64,000 nucleotides of DNA from the NCBI RefSeq assembly GCF_024741795.1, contig NZ_CP102950.1:4464001-4528000 (forward strand), written 5' to 3'. The translations under genes were made by a program, and so were the position numbers. Source of the DNA: Arthrobacter sp. CJ23 (lineage in GTDB: Bacteria; Actinomycetota; Actinomycetes; Actinomycetales; Micrococcaceae). The notes beneath the pieces were generated by a model that saw nothing but the letters and a program-made list of their open reading frames with translations, was not told the DNA's origin and made no database searches. Shown piece by piece: positions 42,838-48,700 of the stretch (position 1 is its first letter; every line of letters starts with the position of its first letter).

Positions 42838-43962
42838 CTATCCGGGCGCCGGGGCGCTGACGGCAAAATCGCCGACGACGACGGCGGCCCGGACGCACAG
42901 CACGTCCGGCAGGTGTGAGACCACCTCGGTAAACGTCTCGCCCTCGTCGGCACTGGCATAGACAAAACCGCTGCGCGTGCCGAAGTAGACGCCCGTCGGT
43001 TCAGCTGAATCCACTGCTGCCGCATCGCGAAGCACCGCGTTGTATTCGTGTTGCGGCAGGCCGGAGTCCAGGCGCCGCCAGGTTTCCCCCGCGTCGTCGG
43101 TACGGTGGACGGCAAGCTTGCCGTCGGGCGGGATCCTATGGCTTTCAGCCTTCATGGGGATCACCCAGGCGGTTCCGCTTCGACGGGGATGCGCCAAGAC
43201 TGTGAAACCGAAGTCTGCGGGCAGGCCCTCCGCGATCGATTCCCAGTTCCCGCCGTCGTCGTCCGTGCGGTACACGCCGCCGTGGTTCTGCGCGTAGAGG
43301 CGGCCCTCGACGCCGGCATCCGCGGCGATCTTGTGCACGCACTGCCCGAATTCTGGGTACTGGTCTGGAAGGAACTCCGCCTGGATGCCTTTGTTGCGCG
43401 GCTCCCAGGAGCCTCCTGCATCCGTCGAGCGGTAGACGCCGCCGGTGCTCATCGCGACCAGCACACGGTCCCTGTTTGGGTCAAGCACGAACGAATGCGC
43501 CGCGGGGCCGCCGAAGCCGGATCCCCATTCAGTCCGGTGTGGGTGGTCCCAGAGGCCGCGGTTCAGTTCGAAGTGCTCGCCGCCGTCGGTGGATTTCCAC
43601 ACCGAGATCGGCTCGCAGCCCGCCCACACCACCCCCGGACGGGACTCCGCGTCGGGGTGGATCTGCCAGACGCGCTCAAGCGCCGCCTCCGTGTCCTCGG
43701 GGAACTTGATTGCGCCGTGCTCCGGTTCGGTCCAGGTAGCGCCCAGGTCGTCGGAGTGGGCGACGGTGGGGCCCCAGATTTCGGAGCGCACGCCTACGAG
43801 GATTCTGGTTCGGCCGTCCCGCGTGTCGATCCCGATGCTGGGGACTTCGCTCATCAGGAAGTGCGGGCCGGAGAGGGACCATTCCTGGCGGTCCGTGCTG
43901 GTTGCCAGCCACAGTCCTTTTTTGGTCCCGATCGCTAAGACATAACTCTCTGCGGTAGCCAT
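42838..43962 (-). CDS. BNR/sialidase-type beta-propeller protein
   Basis: 374 residues from ATG 43962. Several Asp-box repeats (SxDxGxxW) are visible: HSDDLGATW, KSTDGGEHF, RSTDAGGSW, RTDDDGGNW, RTDDAGETW and ASADEGETF, giving a six-bladed or larger propeller. There is no signal peptide, so it is cytosolic, unlike secreted sialidases. Its pairing with a MoaD/ThiS-like gene suggests a role tied to the small sulphur carrier, but no activity is known to me. Confidence 0.82.
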   Translation of the reverse strand: MATAESYVLAIGTKKGLWLATSTDRQEWSLSGPHFLMSEVPSIGIDTRDGRTRILVGVRSEIWGPTVAHSDDLGATWTEPEHGAIKFPEDTEAALERVWQIHPDAESRPGVVWAGCEPISVWKSTDGGEHFELNRGLWDHPHRTEWGSGFGGPAAHSFVLDPNRDRVLVAMSTGGVYRSTDAGGSWEPRNKGIQAEFLPDQYPEFGQCVHKIAADAGVEGRLYAQNHGGVYRTDDDGGNWESIAEGLPADFGFTVLAHPRRSGTAWVIPMKAESHRIPPDGKLAVHRTDDAGETWRRLDSGLPQHEYNAVLRDAAAVDSAEPTGVYFGTRSGFVYASADEGETFTEVVSHLPDVLCVRAAVVVGDFAVSAPAPG

Positions 43963-44043
43963 GAACCCCATGCAACCACGCACGCGCGGGAGCCGCAACG
44001 GGTATTTGGGCAAGGCCCGAGACAGTTTCCGTGCAGGGAAGCC

Positions 44044-44244
44044 TCAGTCCACAAACTCCGACTGCGTCTCGATGAAGTCCCAGTCGGCCTCGGTGAGGAC
44101 GCCGCTGACGTCGTCGGGATGCGGACCGCCGGCTTCAGCGATGTGCTGGATCACCTGCAGCGGCAGTTCCTCTGCCCTCAGGTTGTCCCGCAGCCATTCC
44201 TTGCTCTCGATGTTGATATCCAGCCACCACATGAAGATTTCCAT
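44044..44244 (-). CDS. Small acidic protein, unknown function
   Basis: 66 residues from ATG 44244, which has GAGAGGTGG about 6 bases upstream. The product starts MEIFMWWLDINIESKEWL and is strongly acidic with a predicted helical middle (ELPLQVIQHIAEAG). It lies 81 bases upstream of the BNR gene on the same strand and may be in that operon. No family recognised. Confidence 0.55.
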   Translation of the reverse strand: MEIFMWWLDINIESKEWLRDNLRAEELPLQVIQHIAEAGGPHPDDVSGVLTEADWDFIETQSEFVD

Positions 44245-44403
44245 GCCGGACCACCTCTCCCTCGGCTTAACGGTAGGCCCGGCCGCGGAGCACCACAAGA
44301 GCAGGCGCCGGAGCCCGCAAACCCTTGTCGCGGACCCCGCGGAGGGCCACCCTTGAGGTAGGGACCATGCGGGTTCATGGTCCGGGCGTGGAGGGGGCCT
44401 GGC

Positions 44404-47400
44404 GTGGACGCTGACATTGAGCTGGAGATCGATTCCGGTTCAGAACACGGCGAATACACGGTGCGCGTCGTGGAGGCTCCGGCGGGCGGACATGCATCCG
44501 GGACCTTCACCCTCGACGTCGCCGGCATCCTTGAGCGGCGGGCCGAACTGGAGGCGACGGTGCTGGCGTCGTCCGTGGCGGCACGGCGCACCACGCCGGT
44601 CATGGAACTCCCCGTCCGGGGTGTGGGGCAGGAACTCTTCCAGGCCCTGTTTACGCGGGAGGTCTATGGAACGTACCGGGCCAGCCTGGGGGCCGCCCAG
44701 CATGCGGGGCAGCAGCTGCGCGTGGTGCTGCGGCTCGCGGCCCCGGAGCTCGCGGCCCTGCCGTGGGAGATGCTGTTCGACCCCGAGACGGAGTCGTACC
44801 TCTGCCAGACCGAACCCCTCCTGCGCCACATTCCGGCGCCCGACTACCACCTGAACCCGCTCGACATCACGCCGCCGCTGCGGATCCTGGGCATTGTGGC
44901 CAGCCCGCGCGATCTCCCCTCCCTGAACGTCGACGCCGAAAAGGACCACCTGACGCAGGCCCTGGCCGGGCCGGTTTCCGAAGGCCGCATCGAGCTGGTC
45001 TGGGCGGCCGGCGGAACCTGGGACGCGGTGCAGGCCGCGCTGCTGGCCGGGCCATGGCACGTGGTGCACTTCATCGGCCACGGCGACTACGACGCCCGCG
45101 CGGACGAAGGCAGGATCGCCCTGGAGGGGCCGGACGGCCGCGCCGCGATGGTGCGGGCGGTCCGCCTCATGGCGCTGCTGAGCATCGCCGCACCCCGCCC
45201 CCGCCTGGTGGTCCTGAACTCGTGTTCCTCGGGAGAAACGGGCCAGGCCGACCTTTTCTCCGGCACGGCGGCCTCTTTGGTGCGCAGCGGGATCAGCGCC
45301 GTGGCGGCCATGCAGTTCGCCATCAGCGACTCCGCGGCCATCGCCTTCGCGCATGGGTTCTACGCGGCGATCGCCAACGGCCGGGCCGTGGACGAGGCGG
45401 CCCGGGTCGGCCGGATCTCCGTCATGGCCAGCCCGGACGGCACCCTGGAATGGGTCACGCCCGCCCTGTATGTGCGGGGCGGATCCACCCAGTTGTTCAC
45501 GCTCGCGGCCCCTGCCAAGCCTCCGACGGCGGCCAACGCCGCCGCGGTCCCCGCGCCTTTCGCCGCACCCGTTCCGCCCGCCGCCGCGCCGGGGCTTTTC
45601 GCGGCGCCGGTGCCGGTACCGGGGACCCTCTCGGACGCAGACGCCCTGCGGCTGAAGGAGCGGGCGCACAAGGCGCAGTTGCGTGCCCTGTATGTGCAGG
45701 CGACGGCGGAGCTCCGCACCAGGAACTTCGGGCCGGCGGCGGAACTGTTCGACGACGTCCTGGCGCTGGAACCCGGCTACCGGGACGCCCAGGCCCTGCG
45801 TGACTCGGCACTGCGCCAGCTTGAGCTGGCCGAGCAGTACGGGCATGCCCGCGAGGCCGAGGCCGCCCAGGACTGGGGCGGCGCGGCGGAAATCTACGCC
45901 CTGCTGGAGGGCGAAGCCGGTTACCCCGATGCCGGCGAGCGCAGGAAGGACTGCGAGCGCCGGCAGCGCGTGGCAGAACTGCAGAGCGAACTCCGGTACC
46001 ACGCACAGCGGGGCAGCTGGCAGGCGGTGCTGGATGTCGCCGTCGAGCTTGAGGCCCTGGACCCGGCCGAGGCGGACCCGGACGGGCTCACGACGGCGGC
46101 CCGCACCGAATTGCGAGGCACCCCGGCAGCGCCCGCGGCGGAGGAACCCGCGCCGGCAGCGCCCGCGGCGGAGGAACCCGCGCCGGCAGCGCCCGCGGTG
46201 GAGGAGCCGCCGGCTGCCGTGGCGGTGCCAGAAGCGCCGCTCGCCAAGCCGGTGCCCCAGCGTCCGGCCGCCCTTCCCGAAGCTGCAGCCCCGCGGGCCC
46301 CGGCCACCCCGGTTCCCGTCCCGCCGAGCCCGGCGCCGCCGTCGGCCCCTGTCCGGCGCCCGGTTCCCGCCCCATGGGAGTCGTGGCTGGGACTAGCCGG
46401 CGGGCTCCTGCTCGCGGTGGCCGGCATCGTGGGCGCTGGCGCAGTCACCGAGTACTACTGGTACGTCTACAAGATGGATTCCGGCGCTACTTCGCTGGCG
46501 CTGGCCCTGGGCTTGCTGATTCCGGCAGCGCTGCTGGCAATGGCGGCGGCCGGAGTACCCACGCGTGCAGTCGCGGGCCGGCTGCTGCTGGCGGCGGCGG
46601 CACTGTCCTCGACGGTCCTTGGCTGGGCTGGGCTTGAAAGGATGTCCGTGCCGACGGCCGCCTTCCTGACCGTTCTCCAAGGCACCGCCGCCCTGGCGCT
46701 GGGGATCCTGTGCGTCCGGGAGCCATGGCCTCGGAGGGTAGCCGGATGGATCCTGGGCTTGTCCCTGACGGCAGTGGCCCTCGCTTGGATCCGCGAGGAA
46801 CCGCTCTTCTTCCAACTCAGCTATTTTGTCCCGCTGACCCTGGCCGGGCTGGTGGTGGCATGGGTGTCCCGGCCGTGGCAAGCGCCGGATCCCGGCGGCG
46901 GGGAGCATCCGCTGCCCCAGGCGCACTCCGGGGCGGGCCTCGCCCCCGCTTCGACGCTTGCCAGTCCCCGGCCAGTGAATCCGCGGTTGCTGCTCAGCGG
47001 AGGCTTGGTGCTTGCTGCCTCCGGCACGTGGGCAGCGTGGGGGCAGGGTGTGATCCTTGTGGACGAAGGTTGGTGGTGGGAGGGCGGCCGCGAGATCCTC
47101 CGTCTCTTGCTGGGGCTGGCAGTTCCGCTCGGCTACATCCTGGTCCTTGCCGGGCTGCCCGGCCGGCCGGTCCGCGGCAAAGTCCTGCTGGGCGTGGCGA
47201 TCGCGGCGGTGGCGCTGCATGGCGGCTCCGTGGATGTGGAAGTCGATCCCGACTACGTCCCGTTGCGCGTGGCTCTGAGCCTTGTGGCCAGTGCCTGCGC
47301 CGTGGCCGCGCTGATGATTGCCCGCCGCAGCCAGCCCGAACTTCAGCCTGCGCAGTGGCTCCTGGCCGCTCCCCTGGTGCTGCAGCCGATCATCTGGATC

Positions 47401-47511
47401 CCCAGCAGCGGAGCCTTCGTGGTTGTCCATCTGGTCCTCGTGGCCGCCGCTGGCACCGCCCTTGCCGTCCTTGCACGGCGGGCCGCAGCCCGCCCCGCCG
47501 GTCCCCGATAG
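44404..47511 (+). CDS. CHAT-domain caspase-like protease with TPR-like and multi-span membrane regions
   Basis: 1035 residues from GTG 44404, which has GGAGGGGG 6 bases upstream; the ATG at 44377 lacks a site. The N-terminal CHAT domain (about 60-370) has the catalytic dyad His226 (VVHFIGHGDYD) and Cys274 (VVLNSCSSGET) of the caspase/separase-like clan. A Pro/Ala linker and a helical TPR-like region (about 415-560) follow, then a Pro/Ala/Glu linker with a 30-bp DNA repeat, and about ten membrane helices (670-1030). The next gene encodes a Trypco1-type protein, a known companion of effector proteases in conflict systems. The protease would face the cytosol and cleave a target when triggered. 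Confidence 0.85.
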   Translation: MDADIELEIDSGSEHGEYTVRVVEAPAGGHASGTFTLDVAGILERRAELEATVLASSVAARRTTPVMELPVRGVGQELFQALFTREVYGTYRASLGAAQHAGQQLRVVLRLAAPELAALPWEMLFDPETESYLCQTEPLLRHIPAPDYHLNPLDITPPLRILGIVASPRDLPSLNVDAEKDHLTQALAGPVSEGRIELVWAAGGTWDAVQAALLAGPWHVVHFIGHGDYDARADEGRIALEGPDGRAAMVRAVRLMALLSIAAPRPRLVVLNSCSSGETGQADLFSGTAASLVRSGISAVAAMQFAISDSAAIAFAHGFYAAIANGRAVDEAARVGRISVMASPDGTLEWVTPALYVRGGSTQLFTLAAPAKPPTAANAAAVPAPFAAPVPPAAAPGLFAAPVPVPGTLSDADALRLKERAHKAQLRALYVQATAELRTRNFGPAAELFDDVLALEPGYRDAQALRDSALRQLELAEQYGHAREAEAAQDWGGAAEIYALLEGEAGYPDAGERRKDCERRQRVAELQSELRYHAQRGSWQAVLDVAVELEALDPAEADPDGLTTAARTELRGTPAAPAAEEPAPAAPAAEEPAPAAPAVEEPPAAVAVPEAPLAKPVPQRPAALPEAAAPRAPATPVPVPPSPAPPSAPVRRPVPAPWESWLGLAGGLLLAVAGIVGAGAVTEYYWYVYKMDSGATSLALALGLLIPAALLAMAAAGVPTRAVAGRLLLAAAALSSTVLGWAGLERMSVPTAAFLTVLQGTAALALGILCVREPWPRRVAGWILGLSLTAVALAWIREEPLFFQLSYFVPLTLAGLVVAWVSRPWQAPDPGGGEHPLPQAHSGAGLAPASTLASPRPVNPRLLLSGGLVLAASGTWAAWGQGVILVDEGWWWEGGREILRLLLGLAVPLGYILVLAGLPGRPVRGKVLLGVAIAAVALHGGSVDVEVDPDYVPLRVALSLVASACAVAALMIARRSQPELQPAQWLLAAPLVLQPIIWIPSSGAFVVVHLVLVAAAGTALAVLARRAAARPAGPR
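46124..46206 (+). repeat. 30-bp tandem repeat in the linker of the CHAT gene
   Basis: About two and two-thirds copies of a 30-bp unit encode the linker repeat PAAPAAEEPA. Boundaries approximate. It separates the TPR-like part from the membrane part. Confidence 0.7.
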
Positions 47512-47518
47512 GAACCCC

Positions 47519-47896
47519 ATGACCCAGCTGCTCGAGTTTCCCACCGACGACGGCGGCACGGTCACCGTTGAAGTGTCGACGGCGGCCGGCGGGGTGGTGG
47601 TCCGCGGCGGCGACCATTCAGGCATGTTCGCCCGTGCCCAGCAGACGTTCGAGAGGGCGCTGGGGCACATCCGGCCGGCCGTCCAGGGGGTCATCGACGA
47701 ACTCCTGAGCCTGGAGCACCGCCCGGACGAGGTGACCGTGACGTTCGGCATCGACCTGCACGCCGAGGCGGGCGCCTTCATCGCGGCGGCCAGCACGACG
47801 TCGAACTTCAACGTTACGCTGACGTGGCGCCGGGCGCCTGGAACACCCCGGCCCGGAACAGCCCAGCCCAAAGCGGACGGTTTTGACTCCGAATGA
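47519..47896 (+). CDS. Trypco1-domain protein, partner of the CHAT protease
   Basis: 125 residues from ATG 47519, 7 bases after the CHAT stop (AGGAA upstream). The pattern GMFARAQQTFERALGHIRPA, then VTVTFGIDLHAEAGAFIAAA and NVTLTW matches the trypsin-co-occurring domain 1 (CU044_2847-type proteins), known from operons with proteases, CHAT proteins and NTPases. It is probably a regulatory or adaptor subunit. The last 20 residues are a disordered tail. Confidence 0.8.
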   Translation: MTQLLEFPTDDGGTVTVEVSTAAGGVVVRGGDHSGMFARAQQTFERALGHIRPAVQGVIDELLSLEHRPDEVTVTFGIDLHAEAGAFIAAASTTSNFNVTLTWRRAPGTPRPGTAQPKADGFDSE

Positions 47897-47977
47897 GCCC
47901 CCGCGCTTTGCGCACTGCTTGCCGTACGGGCAGGGCGACGGCCTGTTCAAGGACCGCGGGCCGGGCCACAATGAAGT

Positions 47978-48472
47978 ATGTCTCCGGAGAGTTTCAGCGG
48001 CCCGGTTCCGTTGGTGGTGGGCGTCCTGCCCGGCCAGCACAGCGAGGTACTGAAGACCGCGCGCATGCTTGCTGAGGGGCTGGGAACGCCCATGGTCTGC
48101 GCCTATGTGGACGAGGCCAGCTATCTGGTGGAATGGGATCCGTCCAGGGAAACCCACCGCATGTCCCTCCATCCAGAGAAGGTCGACGCCGATCTTGAGG
48201 CGGTCCGCGACGATCTGGCCGCGTTCATCAAGACCGCCTTGGAAGGGAGCCCTGCGGAGTGGACCGTGCGACTCCTTGCCGGTGATCCTGCCCGCGCGAT
48301 CGGCCGGCTGGCCGCGGATGTGCATGCCTCCATGATCATCGTCGGCACGCCGGAACCGGGGCTGGGGCACCGGATCTCCGAGGCTCTGAACGGCTCGGTG
48401 GCGTCCTGGCTGAGCCACCACCAGCACACGCCGGTGCTGATCGTGCCGCCCGCCAAACACCGCAGGGGCTGA
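47978..48472 (+). CDS. Universal stress protein (UspA family)
   Basis: 164 residues, single Usp domain. The ATP-binding pattern GxxG-x9-GS is present in IVGTPEPGLGHRISEALNGSVAS. The protein starts PLVVGVLPGQHS instead of the usual VVVGVDGS, and the acidic residue expected there is missing, so ATP binding may differ. A single gene 81 bases after the Trypco1 gene, with its own ribosome site region. Confidence 0.85.
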   Translation: MSPESFSGPVPLVVGVLPGQHSEVLKTARMLAEGLGTPMVCAYVDEASYLVEWDPSRETHRMSLHPEKVDADLEAVRDDLAAFIKTALEGSPAEWTVRLLAGDPARAIGRLAADVHASMIIVGTPEPGLGHRISEALNGSVASWLSHHQHTPVLIVPPAKHRRG

Positions 48473-48621
48473 GCCGGACGAAGCCTTCACACCGGCACCG
48501 CAATGCGAGTCTTGTGCCCACCGGCGGGCAATCCGGGCCTAGCACAAGCCCCTAAAAAGTAAAGTCAAAGTACTTATTCGAGGTGCTGGCCAAGGCCCTG
48601 ATCGGCCCGTAGAGTATTTAA

Positions 48622-48700
48622 AGCAGGCAAGCAAAGCACCTGCTCAAAGGCCGCTCCGGAGTGCATATCCCCCAATAATGCACTCCGGAGCTCTTTGTTT
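48622..48700 (+). ncRNA. Candidate small RNA
   Basis: In the gap after the usp gene a promoter-like TGGCCA (48587-48592), 17-base spacer, TAGAGT (48610-48615) is followed by an AGCAGG/CCTGCT hairpin and the strong terminator at 48653-48691. This would give a transcript of about 75-80 bases with two hairpins and no start codon. No Rfam family is recognised; two stems recall but do not match the actinobacterial 6C RNA. Confidence 0.3.
48653..48691 (+). terminator. Bidirectional terminator between usp and the DtxR-type gene
   Basis: GCTCCGGAGTGCAT (48653-48666) pairs perfectly with its complement at 48678-48691 around an 11-base loop with five C residues, followed by TCTTTGTTT. Confidence 0.75.

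Follow-up and report, generated by a model that had tools for sequence, protein, structure and literature searches.

What does Trypco1, a small protein hitherto defined by its links to trypsin and to NTP-dependent systems, do beside a caspase-like protease? In the accessible portion of Kaur et al. 2020 (PMC7159879), Trypco1 is defined beside trypsin in VMAP/MoxR-vWA ternary systems. In the 64,000-nucleotide stretch of the genome of the soil bacterium Arthrobacter sp. CJ23 analyzed here (hereafter the window), a Trypco1 gene follows a gene encoding a CHAT protease with a large membrane tail. A preliminary description read the two as a membrane-anchored protease paired with Trypco1, and this reading is supported by Pfam matches, gene adjacency, and co-occurrence, the pair being conserved in actinobacteria.

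Architecture of the CHAT protein and its partner

The CHAT gene extends over positions 44404..47511 (+ strand, as for all parts of the pair given below) and encodes 1035 aa, as originally proposed, from a GTG start to a stop at 47511, a call based on the ORF, Pfam, and the starts of homologues. Six bases before the GTG at 44404 lies a Shine-Dalgarno-like sequence, GGAGGGGG (44390-44397). While an upstream ATG at 44377 is a possible alternative start, the GTG is preferred because the N termini of homologues match residues coded from 44404. The first 369 residues (44404..45510) make up a CHAT/separase-like protease domain, which matches the Pfam CHAT family (PF12770) over aa 75-344 with 92.3 bits against a cut-off of 24 and, as modeled, adopts a caspase/separase fold. 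The caspase-like dyad described earlier is intact: His226 (codon CAC, 45079..45081) is conserved in 83/84 and Cys274 (codon TGT, 45223..45225) in 84/84 CHAT domains, a set composed of the window and 83 domains longer than 150 aa from named loci, in which only L075 lacks the His. The domain is a predicted protease. Membership in HetF is not indicated by the NCBIfam model NF045509, which scores 49.8 bits against a cut-off of 1200. Elsewhere in the same genome (L179; G000:C1:2020813-2021265), a second CHAT-type match of 104.5 bits covers part of the profile; one plus-strand frame at that locus gave no Pfam match.

Behind the protease domain, aa 411-572 (45634..46119) form a helical region in the AlphaFold2 model, with block-mean pLDDT values of 95-98 over aa 441-570. 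This bears out the TPR-like region proposed earlier, for which Pfam gives only a sub-threshold Fis1_TPR_C match, and the region belongs to the constant core that is kept under varied tails. It is followed by a Pro/Ala-rich linker (about aa 575-655; 46126..46368) that is predicted to be disordered, pLDDT being mostly <50. The membrane tail had been assigned ten helices, and a hydropathy scan of it yields ten peaks. However, the tail consists of two tandem copies of a unit of ~180 aa, 28% identical, whose alignment scores 135 versus 51 ± 9 for shuffled sequences (maximum 94 of 500), and the AlphaFold2 model places six helices in each copy (aa 657-821, 46372..46866; aa 860-1029, 46981..47490), although confidence drops in the second (block means of 48-89). 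The distribution of Lys and Arg, counted in loops plus 4 flanking residues, is 18 inside versus 3 outside, which fits 12 helices with both ends inside. The earlier count is corrected accordingly to 2 x 6: the tail is, as modeled, a 12-helix structure made of a duplicated six-helix unit.

The Trypco1 gene (NCBIfam CU044_2847; 47519..47896), which encodes 125 aa, begins 7 bases after the CHAT stop. Its product matches Trypco1 in Pfam over the full profile (PF19493, 96.6 bits versus a cut-off of 24.6) as well as NF041216 (73.1 bits), so that partner and spacing are as first described and domain searches recover both members of the pair. The structural model of Trypco1 is poor (pLDDT 56), with a loop predicted to be disordered at aa 20-33. 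A fold search with this poor model as query stayed above E 0.001 throughout, 0.16 being the best value, and solved structures searched by sequence and by profile gave nothing convincing.

Conservation of the pair and its setting

In a genus sample of 61 genomes, seven contain a CHAT protein of the window family (E 1e-20 or better); these seven also contain the Trypco1 that goes with it (69-100% identity), and the two genes are adjacent in all of them. The other 54 genomes lack both; among these, 21 have another kind of Trypco1 with about 28-37% identity, and G015 has a trypsin-linked one. Co-occurrence in the same seven genomes would have a probability of about 2e-9 if independent, although related genomes are not independent. 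We also collected 78 loci from named genomes, a set that overlaps with the genus sample in genomes and leans towards the window core because it was found by similarity to that core. Trypco1 lies beside CHAT in 43 of the 78, with a frequency that depends on CHAT identity: 18/18 at ≥70%, 22/36 at 48-70%, 1/5 at 40-48%, and 2/19 below 40% (L089 is binned at 48-70% by its main CHAT gene, 54%, rather than by a short second match, and the Trypco1 of L075, one of the 22, is a fragment scoring 25.7 bits). The conserved adjacency anticipated in the preliminary description is thus present in both sets. CHAT comes first in 33 paired loci and Trypco1 in 6, while 3 are divergent and 1 is convergent; since order and strand vary, adjacency outlives rearrangement. 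Judging by their titles, paired loci are found, among others, in Arthrobacter, Paenarthrobacter, Streptomyces, Nocardia, Agromyces, Microbacterium, Cryobacterium, Actinoplanes, Nakamurella, and one Acidobacteria MAG. Several CHAT genes surround a single Trypco1 in Agromyces L084 and L096, the former (Agromyces ramosus, L084:6060-14043) having four. Over 44 pairs, CHAT and Trypco1 distances correlate with r 0.85, versus a maximum of 0.39 in 2000 permutations, although shared ancestry alone could suffice.

The remaining 35 loci have no Trypco1 neighbor. Some are short contigs, L092 being one of 3.3 kb, and in L070, L071, L078, L092, L101, and L120 the organism name is also that of a paired locus. 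All of these except L120 are among the 14/36 loci in the 48-70% bin that have no nearby Trypco1, which suggests that CHAT may act alone or with Trypco1 in trans.

The constant part of the CHAT proteins is their first ~570 residues, after which homologues differ. Among the 120 matches listed, Pfam detects WD40 in at least 34 proteins, along with Kelch, NHL, LpqN-like, and PP2C domains (the last being the name that we presume for its accession), while 70 have polytopic membrane tails by hydropathy. Since 69 of these 70 cluster on the core tree, with few others mixed in, tails change between clades rather than being strain-variable. The Arthrobacter group has a tail of one kind, hence not hypervariable. 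At paired loci, the tail is of the WD40 type in L072, a single helix followed by an NHL or lactonase-type propeller in L066 and L081, and a single helix with no Pfam match in L082, L083, L084, and L089, while L077 has a polytopic tail with no sequence relationship to that of the window; the tails of both L077 and L079 score at shuffle level against the latter. The same kinds of tail are found at unpaired CHAT loci (L076, L079, L106). Two candidates were discarded: P0069 (792 aa) as a tail swap, its Pro/Arg-rich tail looking frame-shifted, and L067 as a tail-less protein, since a separate ORF follows whose weak propeller-type matches fit a WD40 tail, indicating a broken gene.

Trypco1 itself is more widely partnered. 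A class sample contains 27 Trypco1 genes in 16/148 genomes, 20 of them adjoining trypsin-like domains, 2 (the window and G080) adjoining CHAT, and 5 with neither as a neighbor, as called with our own profiles. In another sample, a trypsin-EAD2-VMAP protein adjoins Trypco1 (L039). Outside the 27-gene sample, a genus Trypco1 precedes a 1310-aa protein (L048:9185-13441) that combines a trypsin-like domain, detected with our own profile, and a Pfam WD40 tail, so that the kind of tail present in CHAT-WD40 proteins is here attached to a different protease. In genus members, L040, L042-L047, and L049 encode a divergent Trypco1 (about 30% identical) with no CHAT or trypsin detected beside it; infB and rbfA are present at 6/8 of these loci, L042 and L043 having neither within the fetched stretch. 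In a Trypco1 tree, 44/46 CHAT-linked rows form one group that also takes in a single long-branch trypsin row (93/77), while L041 and L077 are placed, on long branches, with trypsin rows.

In the window, the pair is flanked by a BNR-repeat gene on one side and a gene for a universal stress protein (USP) on the other. The BNR/sortilin-type repeat gene (42841-43962) is found in 61/61 genus genomes, and such a gene lies upstream, within the fetched 8 kb, at 13/18 Arthrobacter-group loci. The USP gene (47978..48472, + strand; PF00582), a doubtful member of the locus, follows the pair at 15/18 Arthrobacter-group loci and in 6/7 genus carriers (the window and 5/6 relatives), two sets that overlap, and finds no match in the other 60 named loci. 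At five of the 30 fetched BNR loci (L184, L191, L193, L195, L208; four from carriers), the BNR and USP genes are 0.4-0.9 kb apart with no pair in between. One copy of the pair is on a 1.35-Mb Arthrobacter record in a plasmid collection, and a phage collection yielded one core match, at 35% identity, in an unannotated record. Within 44000-48700, no promoter-like site was found, and a single terminator-like site compares with a shuffle mean of 1.8. No third recurring neighbor emerged: outside the Arthrobacter group, the largest other cluster (cluster 1), counted without CHAT, Trypco1, and their reverse-strand shadows, comprises 4 loci, and each Pfam family matches at most 2 of 127 neighbor ORFs, but neighbors may have been missed because gene calls were heuristic and often reverse-strand frames. 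PADLOC matches the CHAT protein only via its CHAT domain and does not match Trypco1. Among the 127 neighbor ORFs, which come from 20 other loci, 13 PADLOC families match one ORF each, a count made without a control set, and a rescan of 10 of these ORFs did not place the matches.

Possible roles of the pair

Together, these results support a protease module that is complete in itself, its small partner being constant and its input exchangeable, and the pair is probably a sensor-triggered protease switch. We hold with moderate confidence that it is a stand-alone two-gene signaling-protease module, composed of a CHAT-TPR core, an exchangeable C-terminal part, and a constant Trypco1 partner, a view whose computed basis is the domains, dyad, fold, 12-helix tail, adjacency, co-occurrence, tail variety, and absence of VMAP-C and EACC1. 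The constant cytosolic core would be positioned or activated by the C-terminal part coupled to it, which in the window protein is a duplicated six-helix membrane unit and elsewhere a propeller inside or outside the cell. With the tails serving as putative sensors, the protease would remain inactive until the tail or the TPR region answers a signal, and its output would be the cleavage of one or few proteins. Trypco1 would bind the protease core, not the tail, as an adaptor or regulator. Related Trypco1 copies go with membrane (Arthrobacter group), WD40 (L072), and NHL (L066) tails, which points to the core as their partner, and the location of Trypco1 beside trypsin (20/27; L048) suggests that the small partner stays while the protease changes. 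Constant under changing tails and common to trypsin systems, Trypco1 appears to serve the protease. The results are compatible with Trypco1 as a putative adaptor, regulator, or substrate. The 14/36 unpaired loci of the 48-70% bin and the uniform tail of the Arthrobacter group count against the module as proposed.

Other roles were considered. Were Trypco1 the substrate, an active CHAT would cut its flexible loop near Arg29-Gly30 and release a signal, which we regard as rather unlikely. Arg-Gly is present in the loop of 46/46 CHAT-linked Trypco1, versus 5/21 trypsin-linked, 1/5 other, and 0/8 orphan genus copies (identical rows and rows <75 aa dropped). The disordered loop also varies in length, in Agromyces L089, L090, and L096 containing a long insert with the motif Arg-Gly-Ile-Pro twice, and Gingipain R, which has the same fold, cuts after Arg according to its entry title. 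However, Arg alone is common in the loops of all groups, and with 44/46 CHAT-linked copies in one tree group the Arg-Gly may be inherited. Moreover, a preference for Arg is not required of CHAT enzymes: the Csx30 site cleaved by Csx29 lies between residues 427 and 429, with no Arg named in the accessible portion of PMC10028731. The alignment seemed to show 0% Arg at position 29 of trypsin-linked Trypco1, but this was rejected as an artifact because many of the unaligned loops do have Arg. It is likewise doubtful that the pair is an anti-phage or abortive-infection module, in which an infection signal would activate CHAT and the cell would be killed or stalled. Although its patchy occurrence (7/61 genus genomes), the empty sites, the copy in the plasmid collection, and the parallels with the EACC1-caspase and VMAP systems, which the accessible portion of PMC7159879 proposes to be conflict systems, are in keeping with such a role, a Pfam scan finds no defense family among the window neighbors, the PADLOC families occur once each around other loci, and the Arthrobacter-group site downstream of BNR is stable.

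The USP gene that follows the pair in the Arthrobacter group would be expected of a housekeeping protease in a stress or envelope response, perhaps acting with that protein. We deem this unlikely since the gene is unmatched at the other named loci and also adjoins BNR at empty sites. Finally, the tail might be the effector, CHAT cleaving the linker to free the membrane protein as a pore. The long disordered linker between core and tail and the repeated origin of unrelated polytopic tails (L077, L079) are compatible with this scenario, but the propeller, Kelch, and LpqN-like tails of other homologues look like recognition parts, and we judge it very improbable.

The signaling-protease module may have a broader meaning, which we advance tentatively: actinobacteria could possess a caspase-type receptor family with a CHAT-TPR core, interchangeable sensors (membrane, intracellular-propeller, or extracellular-propeller), Trypco1 as the readout, an adaptor shared with trypsin systems, and no NTPase switch. 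That Trypco1 is fixed beside CHAT while a sensor-like part changes suggests that it is a general protease partner. The pair is a minimal two-gene system for a direct test of the role of Trypco1 and offers bacterial counterparts to receptor-coupled caspases.

Comparison with known systems

The link to NTP-dependent conflict systems made in the preliminary description is unsupported by searches for VMAP-C and EACC1, which were found in 0/7 genus carriers each, while the same searches detected them in 3/3 and 2/3 control genomes, respectively. The neighbors of the window Trypco1 are CHAT and the USP, not trypsin, and the window CHAT scores 15.6 bits against the EACC1-type caspase domain model NF047832, whose cut-off is 140. 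In its accessible portion, Kaur et al. 2020 (PMC7159879) ties Trypco1 to trypsin, and an alpha/beta-hydrolase or EACC1 is given as the partner of caspase-superfamily peptidases; the term CHAT is absent from that portion, where "caspase" may cover it. The association itself is not wholly new since PMC10907252, as far as its text is accessible, describes Trypco1 as an adapter and reports caspase-like peptidases in its vicinity at retroelement loci. There, Trypco and caspase-like peptidases come with retroelements and conflict-system parts, whereas in the window the two genes stand by themselves and the protease has a CHAT-TPR core of its own. The open-access literature searched yielded no such bare CHAT-TPR/Trypco1 pair combined with varied tails.

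Among solved structures, the TPR-CHAT protein Csx29 of Craspase (8d9g and others; accessible portion of PMC10028731) has CHAT behind the TPR, in contrast to the window protein, where it is in front; residues 397-716 of the Csx29 chain align to residues 1-360 of the window protein, whose family additionally has a membrane or propeller tail. SAVED-CHAT (8tl0) differs in that the window protein has no SAVED domain in Pfam. For the transmembrane protein DdvA (8rot), an anti-sigma factor per its entry title, the matching part is at 706-991 and not N-terminal.

As described in the accessible portion of PMC7159879, the VMAP/MoxR-vWA ternary systems resemble the window in that Trypco1 adjoins a peptidase gene, but in the window CHAT replaces trypsin, VMAP-C is absent from the carriers, and the locus has two genes. 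According to the same source, the EACC1-caspase system, like the window pair, consists of two genes in actinobacteria, one for a constant component of small size and one for a protein of the caspase superfamily, whose C-terminal domains take many alternative forms, as in the CHAT family, and are often linked to the membrane. The two differ in their partner, which is EACC1 there and Trypco1 here.
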